NCBI RefSeq assembly: GCF_003971255.1
Contig: NZ_CP034660.1
Location: forward strand, 1,984,001 to 2,048,000
From: Colwellia sp. Arc7-635
GTDB lineage: Bacteria; Pseudomonadota; Gammaproteobacteria; Enterobacterales; Alteromonadaceae
Length of the DNA stretch: 64,000 nt
Direction of reading: 5' to 3'
The position numbers and the translations under genes were made by a program. Below are positions 1,372 through 62,995 of the stretch, piece after piece (the stretch's first letter is position 1; every line of letters begins with the position of its first letter). The notes below the pieces were generated by a model that was given only the letters and a program-made list of their open reading frames with translations, did no database searches and was not told where the DNA came from.

Positions 1372-3999
1372 TTATCGGTGGCTATCGGCACACAGCATGG
1401 CTTCTAATTCAATTTGCTGCTCTTTCGTTAGCGCTTTATTTTCGGTATTAGAAACCGTAAAAACATCCTCAGCTTTTTCGCCAAACGTGGTTATTTTAGC
1501 GGAATGTATTTGTATATTACATTTTTGAAAAATAGCGGCAATATTCGCTAATAAGCCTGGATGATCTAACGCGACTATTTCCAGTAGAGTGTAATTTTTC
1601 GCTGCAGCTTCAATAAAGCTCACATGTGTTGGTACTTTAAATTGACGAAAGCGTTTCGCCAAAGGTTTCGGTTTAATGCGGATTTGCTTTGAGGCTAATT
1701 TGACACTTAACGAGCGTGCGATGGTCAATGCTCTTGCGCTATCATTAATCGCTTTATTACGATTGTCTAGCACCACAAAAGTATTGGCAGTATAACCAGA
1801 TTTATTCGTGGTAATTTTGGCATCATGTATCGATAATTTTTTTGCGCCAAGTAACGAGACAATATTTAGAAATATATTAGGTTTATCTTTGGTATACACA
1901 AAGACTTCTGTACCACCTCGATAAGGTTTAGGGCTAATAATAACTAAAGGTTTAGCTCTGTTATGTGATAATATATGTTTAAAGTGCCAAGCAATTTGTT
2001 CTGGCGAATAGCGTAAAAAGTAGTCTGCTTTAAATTCTTTCAACAACTGTTTTAACTGCTCTTGATCGACAGTCTGTGCTTTTAAAATCTCAATAGCTTG
2101 TTGCTGGTTTTCTCTTATTTTAGCTCTAAGATCGACCGGCTTTTCAAGACCTCGTCTAAAGGCACGTTTAGTACTGAAGTATAAGTCTTCCAATAAATTG
2201 GCTTTCCAACTATTCCACAGGCTTTCATTGGTAGCTCGCATATCGGCAACCGTTAAGCAGTATAAATAATCGAGGTGTGCTTCATCTCTCACAATTTCAG
2301 CGAAAGCTTTGATAACTTCAGGATCTGATATATCTCTGCGTTGGGCAGTAACAGACATTAGTAAATGCTGCTCAACTAACCAAGCTATCATACGACCATC
2401 GTGGTCACCCAATTTATGAATTTTAGCAAAGTCTAATGCGTCAATCGCACCAAGCTTTGCGTGATCGCCACCACGACCTTTTGCTATGTCGTGAAATATC
2501 CCTGCGAAGTACAATAATTCAGGTTTACGGACACGCTGAACAATTTTACTACACAGTGGGTATTCATTATTATGTTTGGCTTGGCTAAAACGATACAAGT
2601 TTTTCAATAATCGATAACTATGTTCATCAACCGAATAGGCGTGAAATAAATCAAATTGCATTTGGCCAACAATATTGCGCCATTGTGGTAAATAGGCGCC
2701 AATAATAGAGTGACGGTGCATTAATGTGAAGGCTAAGCCTAGCCCTCTGGGATGCTTAATCAATGCGACAAATATTTCACGGCAACGTGCATAGTCAATC
2801 ATACCTGAAACGAGTCGTCTGCGAGCATTACGCATTAAGCGTAAGGTTTCGGGATGTAAATCAGTAATTTCTTTATGCTGAGCGATCAGTAAAAACATTT
2901 CCATGATCATGGTTGAACGCGTAAATACACGCTTATTACAGACTTTTATTTGACCGTCTATAATAACAAAATCTTCATTGAGAACGATTTCTTTACTGTA
3001 TTTCTTTTCATTTAAAATGGCATATTCGAAATGCTGTAATAGCATGCGATTCAGCTCAGAAACGCGTGAAATAATGCGAAAAAATCGCTTCATCATACGT
3101 TCAATCGCCAATTTGCCACCATCGCCAAAGCCCATTAGTTCAGCAACATCAGCTTGATAATCAAAAAGTAGTCTGTTTTCATTACGTCCGGCAATAAAAT
3201 GCAGCGCACAACGCATACGCCATAAGTAATCTTGACACTCGATTAGCTCAAAATATTCGTTAGTGGTTAAGTAACTATGATCAATTAGTTGCTCAAGTGT
3301 ATCGGCCATAAAATGACGTTTAGCAACCCAACCAATAGTTTGAATATCGCGTAAACCACCCGGATTTGATTTCAAGTTCGGCTCTAATGTATAAGAGGCA
3401 CCATGATACTGCTGATGGCGTTGATATTGCTCATCACGTTTGGCAATAAAAAACTTCTCAGATGTCCAAAAAATATCTTCAATTAATAGTGGTTGTAACT
3501 GGGAAACTAAAGCTTCATTGCCACAAATTTGACGCATTTCCATTAAGTTGGTCGCGATAGTTACGTCATCAATGGCTTGATTTAAGCATTCTTTAATACT
3601 GCGAACACTATGGCCGATATCAAGTTTTACATCCCACAATTGAGTAATAAAGGCCGATATCTTTTCCGCTAAGTCGTCTGCGATCACATCCTGTGTGAGC
3701 AATAAAATATCCACATCAGAATAAGGGTGCAGTTCACGTCGACCATAACCGCCAACAGCAACTAAACTAATTTGGTATTCATCGAGGTGATGTTGACACC
3801 AAAGCTTGGTTAGAATGAGATCGACGTAGAATGCTCTTGCTGCGACTAGAGAAGTGACTTCACTAAGTGGAAATTGTGCTTTTTGCCATTGGAGAAATTC
3901 AGCACTGAGTAAACATATTTGGGCACTCGTTAACGAAGGAGCACTTACTGAGAGAGCTTCACAATAATTATCTGGAATAGGTGATGTAGTATTCAACAA
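1372..3999 (-). CDS. glnD: Bifunctional uridylyltransferase/uridylyl-removing enzyme (PII)
   Basis: GlnD adds UMP to and removes it from PII proteins in response to glutamine, setting glutamine synthetase activity and NtrBC signalling. The 875-residue length matches the family (E. coli 890). The nucleotidyltransferase motif [15 protein letters not shown] is at residues 83-97, with the two metal-binding aspartates. A central HD hydrolase domain ([16 protein letters not shown]) removes UMP. Two C-terminal ACT domains sense glutamine ([20 protein letters not shown] and [20 protein letters not shown]). It sits between map and dapD on the same strand. All domains look intact. Confidence 0.97.
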
Positions 4000-40262: not shown

Positions 40263-40603
40263 ATGAACTACAAAGCATTTAATAATTTCTGCCGCGAGCT
40301 GCCAGCGGCACCTATGTGATGCAATGGCATAATTCTCATGTATGGAAAGTCGGCGGAAAAGTTTTTGCTATAGGCGGATTAAAGGGGGAGCGAGGTAAAA
40401 ATGATAACCCAGCATTTATTTTTAAAACATCTGAACTTAACTTTTACTTTCTAAGTGAAATAACTGGCTATAAGCCTGCACCGTATTTTGCTTCTCGTGA
40501 AATGAAATGGACACAACACGACGAAAGCAACGATGATACTGATGACGACTATACATGTACTCGACAACACTATTTAGAAAAGGAGATTTTGTCTTCATTT
40601 TAA
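40263..40603 (+). pseudogene. MmcQ/YjbR-family protein, frameshifted as given
   Basis: Two overlapping frames together make one MmcQ/YjbR protein of about 113 residues. The first part reads MNYKAFNNFCRELPAAPM then a TGA at 40317-40319. The rest, TYVMQWHNSHVWKVGGKVFA onward to the TAA at 40603, is in the frame starting with ACC at 40310. The expected family sequence (LPATTYVVQW then VWKVGGKVFAIGG) spans the switch, so one base is missing (or two extra) near 40305-40312. It is a DNA-binding-like CyaY-fold domain of unknown role. It may be a true pseudogene or an assembly error. Confidence 0.75.
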
Positions 40604-40626
40604 CTTCCTTGGTTGGCTGTGTTTAT

Positions 40627-40817
40627 ATACAGTGTCAGGGTGTTTCCTCCCAAGTCAAGAAATGAGGTATGTTGCCTCATTTCGTCTAAAAACGAAAACA
40701 TTGTATTTACTGTAGCTAAGAGGTGGTATTAGCTGCAAGGATTTGTTATTAATATGTGAAATAAATAAGGTGGAAACTTTCTGGTAGGGAAAGAGGCAAG
40801 TTGCCTCCTATTAAATT
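40627..40817. other. Short palindromic segments before the cassette array
   Basis: GAAATGAGG/CCTCATTTC (about 40662-40686, loop of seven) and a GAGGCAA/TTGCCTC palindrome (about 40792-40806) occur here. No gene is supported. The stretch ends in the first cassette core site; whether it is a degenerate attC or an attI relic cannot be told. Confidence 0.4.
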
Positions 40818-40828
40818 GTTATGTACAC
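40818..40828 (+). repeat. Left core site of the cassette array
   Basis: GTTATGTACAC is the 5' boundary of cassette 1. Its inverse complement, GTGTACATAAC, recurs exactly at 41106-41116, as expected when the cassette starts with the TT-side of its own attC core. The upstream half (R'' and stem) of a full attC is not recognisable, so this may be a decayed attC or an attI-type site. Confidence 0.6.
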
Positions 40829-40839
40829 ATGGAGTTTGT

Positions 40840-41115
40840 ATGTTCTCGAAGGTTTCATCAAAAATTATCATAATCTCATTTTTACTTTTTTTTGGGGGGT
40901 GCTCAACAACTAAGCCAACGAATGTTGCATGTGATTTTGTTGCTGGTGCGGGTGATAATGCACTCGAGAGAAATGAGAATAAAAACAAGAGTGATATTCA
41001 CGGGAATAAAATTAAAAACAGTCAAAATTCAGATGCTCTTGAAGGTATTTTAAATATTTTTAGTGGTATGTTGACTAGAAGCTTAAACGATGACTCAAAT
41101 GGTAAGTGTACATAA
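40840..41115 (+). CDS. Cassette 1: small putative lipoprotein
   Basis: 91 residues from ATG 40840 (GGAG at 40831-40834). The N-terminus MFSKVSSKIIIISFLLFFGG is a signal peptide with a lipobox ending G-C (Cys near residue 22, then STTKPTNVACDF). The mature part is polar and Asn/Lys-rich, ending NDDSNGKCT. No family is recognised. The stop codon lies inside the attC R'' sequence, a hallmark of integron cassette ORFs. An earlier TTG at 40801 lies outside the cassette boundary and is rejected. Confidence 0.65.
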   Translation: MFSKVSSKIIIISFLLFFGGCSTTKPTNVACDFVAGAGDNALERNENKNKSDIHGNKIKNSQNSDALEGILNIFSGMLTRSLNDDSNGKCT

Positions 41116-41209
41116 CAAGCAAATAAACAAGAACTTAAAACAGTTTGTTGTTTTTCGTTCCTCAAAATTTTAACAAACTATTTTAAGCCTGTTATTAGGG
41201 CGTTAGGTG
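41106..41209 (+). repeat. attC1 recombination site
   Basis: The site runs from R'' (GTGTACATAAC, 41106-41116) to R' (GTTAGGTG, 41202-41209). Between them the two halves fold: CTTAAAACAGTTTGTT (left, from 41133) matches the inverse complement of AACAAACTATTTTAAG (to 41186) at all but one base, with a two-base bulge (AA) in the left arm that breaks symmetry, like the extrahelical bases of attC sites. The R' is preceded by GGGC, as in Vibrio repeats. Length is about 100 bp. Confidence 0.8.
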
Positions 41210-41527
41210 ATTAAACTCAGTATGAAATTTTTGCAATTATTTGGTAATTTGAGTCCTCTTTTTATAGTACTTCTTGCCTATAGCTTATTTGGCGATATTG
41301 AACCTGAATTACCATCTTATATTACAGCTTTATTGATCGTATTCTCCGTACTTGGGATTGGCTCTTTTTTCATTCTTACTATACCTAGTTCAGTTATTCT
41401 TTTAAAAGCAGAAAATAGAAACTACTTTTGTTTTAACTCTAAAAGTTGGTTATTAGTATTAACCATCAATTGGCTATATATTGGGTTAATAGGCTTGTGT
41501 ATATTGGTGTTTATTATTACTTCGTAG
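41207..41527 (+). CDS. Cassette 2: small membrane protein
   Basis: Up to 106 residues. GTG 41207 lies inside the cassette's own core site; ATG 41222 (MKFLQLFGNLSPLFIVLLAY) gives 101 residues and is equally possible since neither has a good ribosome binding site. Three hydrophobic segments (about residues 12-30, 38-65 and 85-105) suggest a small inner membrane protein. No family is recognised. It ends nine bases before R''. Expression would need a promoter from outside the cassette. Confidence 0.55.
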   Translation: MIKLSMKFLQLFGNLSPLFIVLLAYSLFGDIEPELPSYITALLIVFSVLGIGSFFILTIPSSVILLKAENRNYFCFNSKSWLLVLTINWLYIGLIGLCILVFIITS

Positions 41528-41535
41528 TTTAAATT

Positions 41536-41637
41536 CACCTAATAATAACATCAAACGGAAATTTACAGTTGGCTGTTTTTCGTACCTCAAACATTGTAGT
41601 CAACTATAAATTTCCGCTCATGTAAGCGTTAGTTACC
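41536..41637 (+). repeat. attC2 recombination site
   Basis: R'' CACCTAAT (41536-41543) is complementary to this cassette's own 5' end (GTTAGGTG at 41202-41209). R' is GTTAGTTACC (41628-41637). The two arms fold: CGGAAATTTACAGTTGGCT on the left against the inverse complement of AGTCAACTATAAATTTCCG on the right, with two mismatches. Right arm ends AAGC before the core. Confidence 0.8.
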
Positions 41638-41649
41638 TAAGGTGTTCGA

Positions 41650-42201
41650 TTGAACATTAGCTGTTTTATGAATAAATTTATTTGGAGAATTATTCAGTTA
41701 AATTTTTTAGTTTTACCTGTTGCTGTTATTTTTTCTATATTATCAGATGTGCATGTAGTCGCAGATTCTTCCGTTGGTTCTTGGTTGTTTAATTTATACA
41801 CTACGTTTTTTATATTTGGTTTGGTTGTACTTTACTTTTTTGTCATTCTAAATAAAGGAACAATTAAGCCAATAAGTAATGATATAAAAAACGGTATGTT
41901 TTTCATTATGCTTCTGGGTTATGGTTTCCTTTTAGCGTTCGCAATCTTCGGAAGTCTCCCTAAATTACTTCATGGGTTTTCTTCTAGCGAAGGTGCTATC
42001 GAATTGACGGTCGAAGGTAAATCAAATATTCGAACTCGTGGTGAATGCTCGCCTCATATAGAAGTTAAAGAAGTTACATTTTTTCTTGATAATCATATTT
42101 GTGTATCTGATTCTGTCTTTGATGAATTAATGGTTGGTGGAAAGGTTACAGTGTATGGAAAGGTTTCAAAATATGGTCTTGAAGTTAATCATATTCGGTA
42201 A
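41650..42201 (+). CDS. Cassette 3: membrane protein with C-terminal soluble domain
   Basis: 183 residues from TTG 41650, which has AAGG at 41639-41642; ATG 41668 is the alternative. Three hydrophobic segments (about 14-33, 48-70 and 81-104) are followed by a soluble beta-rich region of 75 residues (about 110-183: GAIELTVEGKSNIR, then a Cys pair in ECSPHIEVKEVTFFLDNHICV). No family is recognised. The stop TAA (42199-42201) lies in the attC3 R'' sequence. Confidence 0.6.
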   Translation: MNISCFMNKFIWRIIQLNFLVLPVAVIFSILSDVHVVADSSVGSWLFNLYTTFFIFGLVVLYFFVILNKGTIKPISNDIKNGMFFIMLLGYGFLLAFAIFGSLPKLLHGFSSSEGAIELTVEGKSNIRTRGECSPHIEVKEVTFFLDNHICVSDSVFDELMVGGKVTVYGKVSKYGLEVNHIR

Positions 42202-42298
42202 CTAACAAGAAAATCAACAAGGACTAAAACAGCGGGCTATTCGCTTCGCTCCATTTTAGCCCACTATTTTTAGCCTGTTATTTGGGCGTTAGGCTTAC
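42197..42298 (+). repeat. attC3 recombination site
   Basis: R'' GGTAACTAAC (42197-42206) is the exact inverse complement of GTTAGTTACC at the start of the same cassette (41628-41637). R' is GTTAGGCTTAC (42288-42298). The arms pair (ACTAAAACAGCGGGCTA against TTTTAGCCCACTATTTTTAG) with an asymmetric bulge. The right arm AGCCTGTTATTTGGGCGTTAGG is nearly the same as in attC1. Confidence 0.82.
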
Positions 42299-42305
42299 AA
42301 GGAAT

Positions 42306-42641
42306 ATGGTAGTGGAATCAACGTATATTTATATCATTATCGCTTGCCTAGTGATCTGGTTTATCGAGCATAAAGTAAACTTATCTACTTCGCATAAAGC
42401 GTTAATAGAAGATGGTGATAACGTTATAATTAATCCAACTATGTTGTCACGCAGTTATGGTTTTTCATCAAAAGTTGTTACTAAATCTAATATTACAAAA
42501 ATCCAACTTGCAGATAATTGTGTTAGTTTATTCACAGAAAGCAATAACGCCATAGATATTTGGTTACCTAAAAAATCTTGCGGTAATATTGCTGAACGGG
42601 CAGAGGAATATTTTAAAAGTGCGAGCTTGGTAAAAGTGTAA
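42306..42641 (+). CDS. Cassette 4: small membrane-anchored protein
   Basis: 111 residues from ATG 42306 (AAGGA at 42299-42303 is close; GTG 42312 would have better spacing). A single N-terminal hydrophobic helix (YIYIIIACLVIWFIEH) is followed by a soluble domain with alternating hydrophobic and polar residues (ALIEDGDNVIINPTML, KSNITKIQLADNCVSLFTES), which looks like a small beta-sandwich facing the cytoplasm, PH-like; this fold guess is weak. No family is named. Stop lies in the attC4 R''. Confidence 0.55.
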   Translation: MVVESTYIYIIIACLVIWFIEHKVNLSTSHKALIEDGDNVIINPTMLSRSYGFSSKVVTKSNITKIQLADNCVSLFTESNNAIDIWLPKKSCGNIAERAEEYFKSASLVKV

Positions 42642-42740
42642 GGCTAACAATGGCTTAAAACATAAAAAATACAGTTGGCTATTTTTAATCCGTTCAATAT
42701 TTTAGTTAACTAAATTTTTCCGCTTAAGCAGGCGTTATGC
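42638..42740 (+). repeat. attC4 recombination site
   Basis: R'' GTAAGGCTAAC (42638-42648) matches the inverse complement of this cassette's 5' end GTTAGGCTTAC with one mismatch. R' is GTTATGC (42734-42740). The arms resemble attC2 (ACAGTTGGCTATTTTT; TTAGTTAACTAAATTTTTCCGC), with a GCGTTATG end. Confidence 0.78.
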
Positions 42741-42764
42741 TTACAATCTAATCAAGGAGTCGAT

Positions 42765-43110
42765 TTGATAATTTTTATATCATTAATTCTTATTTTATTT
42801 TCATCATATTCACTAGCTGTAAATGACAATATTACTTTAGGTTCAGGTAAATTCACTATAGATGGTGGAGAAGGACATACAGTAAAACGAATAGGACGTT
42901 TATTACCATTTACCTACCTCCTTTGATGAAAACACTAAAGTATTAGTTGTTATTCCTGACGCAGGAAGAAATGGATGGAGTTATCGTGATTCATGGGTGG
43001 AAGCATCGGAAAAATATAACGTATTGATTTTATCACCTAGTTACTCTGAAAATTTTTATCCTAGATTTTGGAATTATAATGTTGCTAAATTTGATGGACA
43101 CCCATCCTAA
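42765..43110 (+). pseudogene. Cassette 5: frameshifted, truncated alpha/beta hydrolase
   Basis: A TTG at 42765, with AAGGAG at 42754-42759, opens a signal-peptide-like start (MIIFISLILILFSSYSLAVN). That frame stops at a TGA near 42924. From TTT 42922 the +1 frame continues with FDENTKVLVVIPDAGRNGWS and WVEASEKYNVLILSPSYSE, an alpha/beta-hydrolase segment with the strand and oxyanion region of serine hydrolases. The second frame stops at 43108, but the cassette is probably cut about 43093 where a transposase remnant begins. No R'' of this cassette remains. A dead cassette. Confidence 0.6.
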
Positions 43111-43489
43111 ATTGAACAAGCGTAGTCTGTGTACTAAGCTCAAATGACCCTTTCTCACTCATGTCAGGTGCGTGATGACTACACCAAGAAAGCAACAAAT
43201 CAGTTTAGCGGATACCCCTTACTATCACTGTATTACACGCCGTGTCAGACGTGCGTTTTTATGTGGTGAAGATAAGCACTCAGGCCAAAGCTTTAAGCAT
43301 CGACGAGGCTGGATAGAAGATAAGTTACATTTCCTCACAACAATCTTTGCTATTAACGTATGTGCTTATGCAGTGATGGACAACCACTATCATGTGGTGT
43401 TATTTGTTGATGAAGAAAAAGCTAAGCGATGGAGTATGAGTGACGTGCTTGAGCGCTGGCATCGTTTACACAAAGGTACGCTGAGTTAA
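43093..43489 (+). mobile_element. Remnant of a Y1/HUH (IS200-like, REP-associated type) element
   Basis: The region from about 43093 (TGGACACCCATCC) to 43489 holds the 5' end of a transposase gene and its upstream sequence. The left boundary is approximate: it is where the hydrolase sequence stops making sense. The right boundary is abrupt, with the transposase frame ending in CTGAGTTAA next to the stop codon of an opposing gene. No terminal repeats are evident. Confidence 0.6.
43175..43489 (+). pseudogene. Truncated HUH-family (Y1_Tnp) transposase
   Basis: 104 residues from ATG 43175 (a GTG precedes at 43172). Segments TPYYHCITRRVRRAFLCG and VMDNHYHVVLF match the Y1-type transposase core: the HUH motif reads H-Y-H. 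Family members run to about 300 residues; this one ends after LERWHRLHKGTL with a junction-derived Ser and stop. The catalytic tyrosine, normally downstream, is lost, so the protein cannot be active. Confidence 0.8.
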
Positions 43490-44074: not shown

Positions 44075-44459
44075 TTTAAAATCCCTTTGTTATTGTTGAC
44101 CTTATGTATGAAACCAGTCAAAAAGATTAGTTCACTTATTGTTGGTGAAAATACATATAATAATACACAAACGATCAAAACCGACATATAGACAGTTGTA
44201 TATTTTTTCTTTATTTGTGCTGTTATTAGAGACAAGGTTGCTGAGAAAATCTTGCTAATGCTAATGCTAATGCTAATGCTAATGCTGATTTGAGATTCAT
44301 GTTAACTCCAAGCAATGGAGGTCAACGGCAGCTTAGAGCTTAAACCAGCCCCACAGATGAGCAAAAAATCTTGGCTAATATTGTCATAAATATGCTCATG
44401 ACTTTGCAAAAGCTAATGTCTGAAATTGGCTAACTACTGTCGTAAACCTCAATAAGCAG
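44075..44459. other. Intergenic region with hexamer repeat
   Basis: About 385 bases upstream of the exported protein gene. Only the hexamer repeat at 44254-44289 stands out. No attC-like site is recognised. No gene is supported. Confidence 0.45.
44254..44289. repeat. GCTAAT hexamer tandem repeat
   Basis: Five perfect copies of GCTAAT and a sixth with one change (GCTGAT). It lies about 180 bases upstream of the exported protein gene (minus strand), a spot where copy-number change could alter expression, but no promoter link is shown. Confidence 0.7.
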
Positions 44460-55761: not shown

Positions 55762-55887
55762 TTGCGCAGCTTTAATATAGTAATATTTCACTGAATAGAT
55801 TTTTATCGCAGTTTGATAGATTTTCTAGGATATTACTGTACAGAACCAAGAGAGTTGTTGCTTGGTTTACATCGTGGGTTCAGTGAA

Positions 55888-55914
55888 TAAGCCCCGCGTA
55901 ATGGGGCTTTTTTG
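55888..55914 (+). terminator. Terminator-like hairpin in the rimP leader
   Basis: AGCCCC (55889-55894) and GGGGCT (55903-55908) with CGCGTAAT loop bases, followed by six T residues. Downstream of the promoter and before rimP, so it would act as an attenuator. Confidence 0.7.
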
Positions 55915-55959
55915 TATCTTAACTTTGTGAAAAGATGCAATGACAGCAAGTGTATCGCT

Positions 55960-55980
55960 GGGCTATATGCCCTTTTTTTG
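55960..55980 (+). terminator. Second terminator-like hairpin in the rimP leader
   Basis: GGGC TATAT GCCC (about 55961-55973) followed by a run of seven T residues. It is short-stemmed (four GC pairs) and lies 33 bases before the rimP start. With the first hairpin it suggests tandem attenuation of the nusA operon. Confidence 0.55.
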
Positions 55981-62647: not shown

Positions 62648-62725
62648 ACCCGCTCTTAGAACGTCTTGCTGATTTAGTGTTCGGCTCGACGCGATTTTTA
62701 AAACACTAAAATTAAGGTAAATATT

Positions 62726-62995
62726 ATGTCTTTAAATGCTGCTGAAAAAGCTGCTATCGTTGCAGAATACGCTCAAGCTGAAGGTGATACTGGTTCTCCA
62801 GAAGTACAAGTTGCTTTGTTAACTACACAAATCAACCACTTACAAGGTCACTTCAAAGAGCACATCCATGATCACCATTCACGTCGTGGTTTATTACGCA
62901 TGGTAAGCCAACGTCGTAAATTACTTGATTACTTAAAAGGCAAAAACGTTACACGTTACACTGCTTTAATCGGTAAATTAGGTCTACGTCGTTAA
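62726..62995 (+). CDS. rpsO: 30S ribosomal protein S15
   Basis: S15 binds 16S rRNA at the central domain and is a primary-assembly protein. The 89-residue product has the exact family length, with [40 protein letters not shown] and [19 protein letters not shown]. An AAGG site precedes the ATG. A terminator follows, and the next gene is not pnp. Confidence 0.98.

Follow-up and report, generated by a model that had tools for sequence, protein, structure and literature searches.

The window analysed here is a stretch of 64,000 nucleotides, positions 1984001 to 2048000 of the single 4741350-bp contig (100% complete by the assembly table) that represents the chromosome of Colwellia sp. Arc7-635. 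It contains an integron cassette array, which a reading of the letters alone (below, the sequence-only reading) had described as four same-direction cassettes with attC-like sites in a gammaproteobacterial chromosome. We confirm this array and find that it is headed by remains of an integron platform at 40542-40821, namely 19 codons of a second integron integrase gene (intI2), a LexA-type box, and an attI-type site that abuts the first cassette. Throughout, G000 denotes the source chromosome, and the other G and L tags denote genomes of relatives and individual loci, respectively.

Cassettes, attC sites, and platform remains in the window

Because Rfam at its gathering threshold matched no attC, we built our own covariance models: R1 from 35 attC sites, the window's four included, and R3 from 30 sites elsewhere in the same chromosome, the window's four excluded. 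The four window sites score E values of 8e-25 to 2.5e-21 with R1 and 2e-25 to 4.9e-19 with R3, and the sole further R3 match at E<=1 in the 64 kb is an antisense echo of attC2 (0.0013). The consensus hairpin of the 35 sequences covaries: 95.1% of cells are paired, against 77.7% in shuffles, and 121 cells are double-changed, against 33.1; none of 500 shuffles reached the observed value on either measure. Folding of the bottom strands as DNA, a check suggested by the sequence-only reading, favors attC1, attC2, and attC3 over shuffles (z of -1.93, -3.69, and -2.58), whereas attC4 folds no better than its shuffles (z of +0.80). With attC hairpins and R boxes of the form GTTRRRY, the locus belongs among integron cassette arrays.

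Four of the five cassettes start at GTT, end in a complementary R'' core, and carry a single open reading frame (ORF) in the same direction; the fifth is truncated. The core repeat is exact over 11 nt in cassette 1 (GTTATGTACAC/GTGTACATAAC), and complementarity is, as previously described, exact for cassettes 1 and 3 with one mismatch for 2 and 4. The sequence-only reading had also put three ORF stops within the R'' box and a fourth just before it, which is roughly right: the stops of cassettes 1 and 3 lie inside the R'' seven-mer and that of cassette 4 abuts it, but that of cassette 2 lies about ten bases before. Its end of the array, 43093, overlooked that the array there passes through a fifth cassette without attC, which is cut by a repeat resembling a transposase associated with repetitive extragenic palindromes (REP). 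Cassette 5 is 88% identical over 351 bp to L022:6506-6855 in another array, where the copy runs on into a 303-aa ORF.

The head of the array was recognized by comparison with intI-adjacent DNA. An nhmmer attI profile was made from 28 such regions of Colwellia, Thalassotalea, and related genomes (27 loci and the intI locus of the source genome); at least three of them (L030, L043, and L077) lie beside a broken intI, and no orphan head of the source genome is included. This profile has one significant match in the window, 40596-40822 (E of 3.7e-10, 34.7 bits), the best of 20 simulated windows reaching 8.1 bits. A covariance model of heads, R2, matches 40724-40821 with an E value of 1.6e-12, although R2 contains this very site. 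Further, positions 40542-40821 are 93% identical over 281 bp to an intI2 platform in the relative G001 (L134), and this alignment stops at codon 19 of intI2; read by eye, the remnant agrees with the IntI2 N terminus of G001 in 19 of 19 residues. An earlier blastx search of the head had given only marginal intI likeness (best E of 0.027). By eye, the last 200 bp before cassette 1 also resemble the region between the resident intI and its first cassette. The site thus falls among attI sites by a sequence family ending at the crossover and by its 93% identity to the intI2-linked site. We had considered the left flank as a plain attG insertion point and dropped this candidate once its attI likeness appeared.

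Upstream of the attI-type site lies what we take to be a LexA-type box, in the same relative position as the box of the resident intI platform (L009/L021). The pattern alone is not significant, with two window matches where 0.68 are expected and two or more in 13 of 100 shuffles. Since intI2 is broken off after codon 19, the window does not hold a complete integron; as read from its sequence, the array is a decapitated integron of the IntI2 lineage, in which the loss of intI can be followed to the codon.

Table 1. Features of the array and its borders (window coordinates; E values from model R3)
Feature	Position	Strand	Remarks
YjbR-like gene fragment	40316-40541	+	abuts intI2 remnant; ORF runs over the remnant to 40603
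intI2 remnant	40542-40598	-	start codon and codons 1-19 (MKTKSPFLNSVVEYMYSRH), then broken off
LexA-type box	40617-40632	not assigned	CTGTGTTTATATACAG; former intI2 promoter
attI-type site, family epsilon	40709-40821	+	crossover between G40818 and T40819
Cassette 1	40819-41202	+	384 bp; ORF 40840-41115, 91 aa, lipoprotein-like by eye
attC1	41104-41213	+	E 2e-25
Cassette 2	41203-41628	+	426 bp; hydrophobic ORF to 41527, 101-106 aa
attC2	41531-41639	+	E 2.9e-19; R'' core CTAAT in place of CTAAC
Cassette 3	41629-42288	+	660 bp; ORF to 42201, 177-183 aa, membrane-like by eye
attC3	42194-42299	+	E 4.5e-22
Cassette 4	42289-42734	+	446 bp; ORF 42306-42641, 111 aa
attC4	42636-42745	+	E 4.9e-19; stem degenerate
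Cassette 5	42735 to ~43085	+	truncated, without attC, frame broken
REP-associated transposase-like repeat, truncated	43086-43489	+	terminates array, cuts cassette 5

The ORFs of cassettes 1 to 4 have no Pfam match, nor does the window ORF of the REP-transposase-like repeat. This repeat has copies of 70-88% identity elsewhere in the genome and longer relatives at L102:10636-11631 and L014:4545-5537; the L014 copy scores 37 bits against NF047646, below the cut-off of 80. The YjbR-like fragment scores 26.3 bits against PF04237, below the cut-off of 30.1. A short tandem repeat of GCTAAT units lies near the array (~44254-44288). Elsewhere in the window, a ribosomal S15 leader (62661-62782) and a rimP leader RNA (55857-55979) pass the gathering threshold and are ordinary.

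Integrase, heads, and arrays across the chromosome

The chromosome contains one intact intI, at 2853143-2854105 (321 aa) and 0.83 Mb from the window array. Its product is an integron integrase by the curated model, matching TIGR02249 over its full length with 448.4 bits (cut-off 265), and it matches PDB 2a3v over residues 1-320 with 425 bits. The nearest named IntI genes are from Colwellia strains (88-90%), and a LexA-type box and an attI lie beside the gene. The family NF011946 was rejected as an IntI identifier; the match falls below its cut-off, and the model also responds in 14 of 14 control genomes. The resident IntI is the sole IntI match in the source genome at E<=1e-8, and the rest of intI2 was accordingly not found at that threshold.

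Model R1 gives at least 94 matches in the chromosome at E<=1e-4 (150 of 3262 candidates scored) and 103 at E<=1. Of these 103, 92 could be delimited as attC sites, and 11 that are isolated, weak, or antisense were dropped. The possibility named in the sequence-only reading as a refutation, a dispersed repeat unrelated to cassette boundaries, is thereby rejected, as related sites across the chromosome also delimit cassettes. The 92 sites form 19 arrays, 18 of them with at least two attC sites. All 19 arrays start at an attI-like head that ends at G/TTA (slashes mark junctions), and 18 of the 19 are without intI. The intI-derived profile detects 14 heads at E<=2.4e-7, among them the intI-linked head, itself part of the profile; the remaining five have a sixth head sequence in common (zeta), with the same ending at /GTTA. 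In an automatic test at 21 first attC sites, 17 boundaries fall at a head, and the arrays at 935 and 4416 kb fail this test but have profile heads. The isolated weak attC-like sites at 743.8 and 1338.2 kb have no head by profile or boundary test. In all, six isolated weak matches were left aside, four of them in stretches outside those examined.

The longest array, with 22 attC sites (L019, G000:C1:2383472-2396010), is without intI, and the intI-linked array has six. Two kinds of insertion sequence (IS) recur in the arrays. One, of ~1.7 kb, targets attC, with eight copies sharing the same end (GCGTT/GGTATGACTCCC) in attC R' boxes (L012:5193, L013:4741 and 12431, L019:8223, L020:7500, L022:8066, L023:5607, and G000:C1:4416858); the transposase of the L020 copy belongs to the IS110 family (NF033542, 263 bits). 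A second IS110-like element (138 bits, cut-off 140) is ~99% identical in three arrays (L022:3356-4991, L109:6424-8057, and L110:3235-4863).

The heads fall into six families, with three arrays for alpha (one with intI), four each for beta and gamma, two for delta, one for epsilon, and five for zeta. The single epsilon array is that of the window, and two further epsilon sites are without arrays. In families alpha, beta, and gamma, identity by bins is 68-100% over the 113 bp leading up to GTTA and drops to 18-40% in the 80 bp that follow; the alpha figures are slightly low, as the position taken for the intI-linked head lay one base beyond the true one. The beta attI cores, all four identical over 113 bp, precede four different first cassettes, with 53-88% identity in the regions from -230 to -170. 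Upstream homology within beta and gamma extends over ~225-400 bp. Close to the junction, the delta heads show a poorer alignment (50-67%), and zeta pairs, compared upstream only, are 64-78% identical.

Similar heads occur in relatives. At E<=1e-4, each of 17 genomes of the genus has attC matches, with minimum counts of 13 to 107 per genome. Model R2 at E<=0.01 gives head rows, antisense echoes included, in 16 of the 17: 23 in G000 (17 distinct), 19 in G014 (17 distinct), 13 in G001 (12 distinct), 10 in G003, 9 in G008, and 6 each in G010 and G013. In 15 of the 17, one to three IntI-like matches extend over at least ~300 residues, and some of these contain a stop or reach only ~40% identity; G002 yields just two IntI pieces, and G015 none at E<=1e-8. 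Across the family, a head is found at E<=1e-4 in 71 of 147 genomes (Infernal, stricter filters) and an IntI-like match at E<=1e-60 in 105, counts that include unchecked weak partial matches outside the genus. In some single-contig genomes, heads outnumber close IntI matches; G138 has four heads and IntI matches of 64% and 42%, and G052 has three heads and one IntI. Orphan heads were part of R2 and zeta heads were not, so the head counts are incomplete and do not bear on the idea independently.

Cassette turnover behind orphan heads

Fragments of intI lie beside several heads besides that of the window (E of 3.7e-7 at L018, 1.8e-4 at L020, and 4.2e-4 at L109), several heads have mutated LexA-type boxes, IS elements sit inside attC sites, and attC2 and attC4 of the window have degenerated. 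All of this would suit a view of the orphan arrays as dead fossils, immobile since the loss of intI and with all of their cassette variety older than that loss. Comparison with relatives speaks against this view. At the window locus, G001 carries the same head in the same gene neighborhood (aminotransferase, glyoxalase, and EamA), and its codon-19 breakpoint is identical and joined to the same YjbR-like fragment. The two loci are 89-95% identical over a common 362 bp and then have different cassettes; beyond GTTAT, only the short ATGGAGTT is in common, apart from attC likeness further on. Because the truncation is shared and the cassettes differ, intI2 was probably lost before the two lineages split and the cassettes changed after.

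A second orphan head tells a similar story. We compared 25 heads of relatives (10 from G003, 3 from G009, and 12 from G001) with 22 head-like sites of the source genome, and nine pairs have 400 bp or more in common farther than 600 bp upstream. Two of the nine are pairs of orphans contiguous to GTTA: the window locus and the head at 935 kb with its counterpart at 3558 kb in G003. The latter two are 95% identical over 4829 bp and 100% in the last 200 bp, and no IntI similarity was found upstream of either. Downstream, identity is 26-36% in the first 300 bp, and the right flank then resumes at 99.4% over 314 bp. Between head and right flank, the source genome has ~1.3 kb with one attC, and the corresponding 219 bp of G003 contain a small ORF and, by eye, an inverted core repeat. 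A further two of the nine pairs have the same flank with heads of different families (own 3282 kb, L022, with G003 1058 kb, L117, flank 98%; own 1882 kb, L016, with G001, L135, 81%), so that platforms seem to replace one another at fixed loci. The other five pairs all include the intI-linked head, and what aligns in them is intI itself or repeats close by.

Cassettes also recur between arrays. In an all-versus-all comparison of the 92 cassettes, two pairs from different arrays are 100% identical over their full length (428/428 and 454/454 bp), and no other pair aligns over 85% or more of the longer cassette. The 428-bp cassette stands first behind the beta head at 1032.6 kb and second behind the gamma head at 3395.9 kb; the 454-bp cassette is found in the orphan beta array at 1026.8 kb and in the intI array at 2852.1 kb. 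Neither this nor the differing DNA behind conserved heads is easily reconciled with arrays that have stood still since losing intI, and we regard fossils of this kind as an unlikely explanation.

RecA-dependent homologous recombination via similar attC or IS repeats, or misassembly, would also bring the same cassette into two arrays. Many attC and IS copies are alike (IS mostly 98-99%), and arrays are also linked by other blocks, 95-99.6% identical and in many cases IS copies. However, the identical cassettes end at G/TT, with flanks that differ beyond GTTA, and the left neighbor of the 428-bp cassette is a head in one array and an attC in the other, without homology. As identity stops at G/TT between a head and an attC, homologous recombination explains the pairs poorly; the genome is a single complete contig, and heads precede arrays in other assemblies too, which makes misassembly, like recombination, very improbable. 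Least credible is off-target insertion by IntI at ordinary genomic sites (attG), which is among the usual explanations offered for cassette clusters distant from intI. IntI can use non-classical attG sites (PMC12901181, PMC12444791) and arrays lie at many loci, but all 19 stand at attI-like heads, which represent six families and of which the intI-derived profile detects 14, and beside heads there are LexA-type boxes and fragments of intI. The window's own platform remains, the genome's intact intI, and the 18 further attI-headed arrays argue that its cassettes do not lie at an arbitrary site.

Heads of the epsilon family appear to belong with IntI2, being seen with it in G001, interrupted in G003, and without it in the source genome. 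Aligned to the intI2 platform, 15 epsilon heads break at codon 19 in three cases (the window, its G001 counterpart, and G003 890 kb), at about codons 39, 11, and 3 in one case each, and upstream of the start codon in nine. Given these varied breakpoints, we rejected a single mobile unit with a constant left border as a description of the epsilon heads. At G003 890 kb, an insertion (L116:4461-8593) parts intI2 from the head after codon 19, the break codon of the window; it has two ORFs (520 and 254 aa) that by eye resemble an IstA/IstB-type pair.

The region around the window locus looks like a hot spot. G003 has two attC sites and an epsilon head between the glyoxalase and EamA genes, in opposite orientation. 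In the 17-kb stretches from the aminotransferase, within which the far border of the locus was not found, G013 has 11 minus-strand attC sites (and two plus-strand echoes) after the glyoxalase gene, and G016 has one weak site (35.8 bits). No attC was found in the stretches of G015 and G023 examined at this locus. The first cassette behind the G003 head (L101:9012-9713) encodes, by eye, a protein with a TIR-like domain, and docks of this kind may therefore carry defence genes.

Proposed origin and relation to known systems

We consider it likely that the window array is a remnant of an IntI2-lineage integron, one of 19 attI-headed arrays, and that orphan attI sites have served as docks for cassettes in trans. 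The array would be what remains of a second chromosomal integron, from which intI2 was removed beyond codon 19, while the promoter region, its LexA-type box, and the attI site stayed behind at the head; the truncated form is already common to the sister species at this locus. The orphan attI sites would have remained in use, served by integrases encoded elsewhere: today presumably the single intact IntI at 2.853 Mb and formerly also IntI2 and others. We infer this action in trans from the shared breakpoint with changed cassettes, the identical cassettes in distant arrays, and the different DNA behind conserved heads.

Several observations weigh against this proposal. IntI-alpha would presumably have to act on foreign attI families. 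The zeta heads are missed by the intI-derived profile, and no intI was seen beside any of them. Head-like sites at 3292, 3391, and 3747 kb are without strong attC sites behind them, and in two epsilon pairs the first 30 bp past the junction are still partly alike (63% for 3292/3391 and 50% for the window and G001). R1 finds no attC in the 219 bp that follow the 3558 kb head of G003. In the window, the head is among the more divergent ones, no sigma-70-like promoter was found on its cassette strand, and two of the four attC sites are degenerate (attC2 with AAT for AAC in R'', attC4 in its stem). Further, 9 of the 17 genus genomes have only two to four head rows and one (G016) has none, so that many docks per genome is not a genus-wide rule. 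With the matching intI2 lost and half of its four attC sites degenerate, the window array may now be quiet.

A broader proposal, to which we give even chances, is that Colwellia and relatives have a distributed integron, in which one SOS-regulated integrase serves about twenty scattered attI docks, some from lineages whose integrase was lost, and the docks have been multiplied, swapped, and kept. If so, cassettes could be shuffled among, and expressed from, many places on the chromosome and not just one. Should orphan attI sites work in trans, an integron would be a set of docks served by one enzyme and not one platform, which would change how cassette expression, stability, and spread are modelled.

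In one survey, clusters without an integrase are about as common as complete integrons (2961 versus 2760; PMC9024848), and three routes to them have been named: off-target insertion, loss of intI, and rearrangement (PMC8618304). Here, the origin of one such cluster can be traced to the codon where its integrase gene ends, and attI-like sites likewise head the 18 further arrays of the chromosome. Among the matches listed in the open-access literature, we recognized no description of orphan or multiple attI sites or of Colwellia integrons, a weak negative, as subscription journals and preprints lie outside it.

The resident system resembles the sedentary chromosomal integrons of the Vibrio type in its intI of the IntI/2a3v family with an SOS-type box, its divergent attI, its attC hairpins, and its cassettes joined at G/TT. 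Integrons typically have one attI, close to intI (PMC9024848); the source chromosome differs in its 18 further attI-headed arrays elsewhere, without intI. The sequence-only reading had assigned the window array to the clusters of attC sites lacking integron integrases (CALIN). This is apt insofar as there are at least two attC sites and no intact intI nearby, but read strictly, with no platform at the array, the term does not fit the attI, LexA-type box, and 19 intI2 codons found here. The definition of CALIN considers attC and intI only, and IntegronFinder detects no attI outside class 1 (PMC9024848); each array of the source chromosome has its own attI-like head, some with an intI fragment, and the label hides the origin and setting of the window array.

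Xanthomonas integrons have in common with the present case the inactivation of intI, cassette clusters (CALINs) at recurrent loci, seven across the well-sampled species, and trans mobilization stated as possible (PMC12444791). The portions of that paper used here report no attI heads at the clusters, whereas the source chromosome has 19 arrays in one genome. In the delta-attI cassettes of mobile integrons, the 3' end carries, in place of attC, a piece of attI (14-18 nt in several types, in one case a complete attI1), and these cassettes are recombined by IntI1 (PMC12901181). They have in common with the present arrays that attI sequence stands in an unusual position; here, in contrast, it is a whole attI with its promoter region that heads an array.

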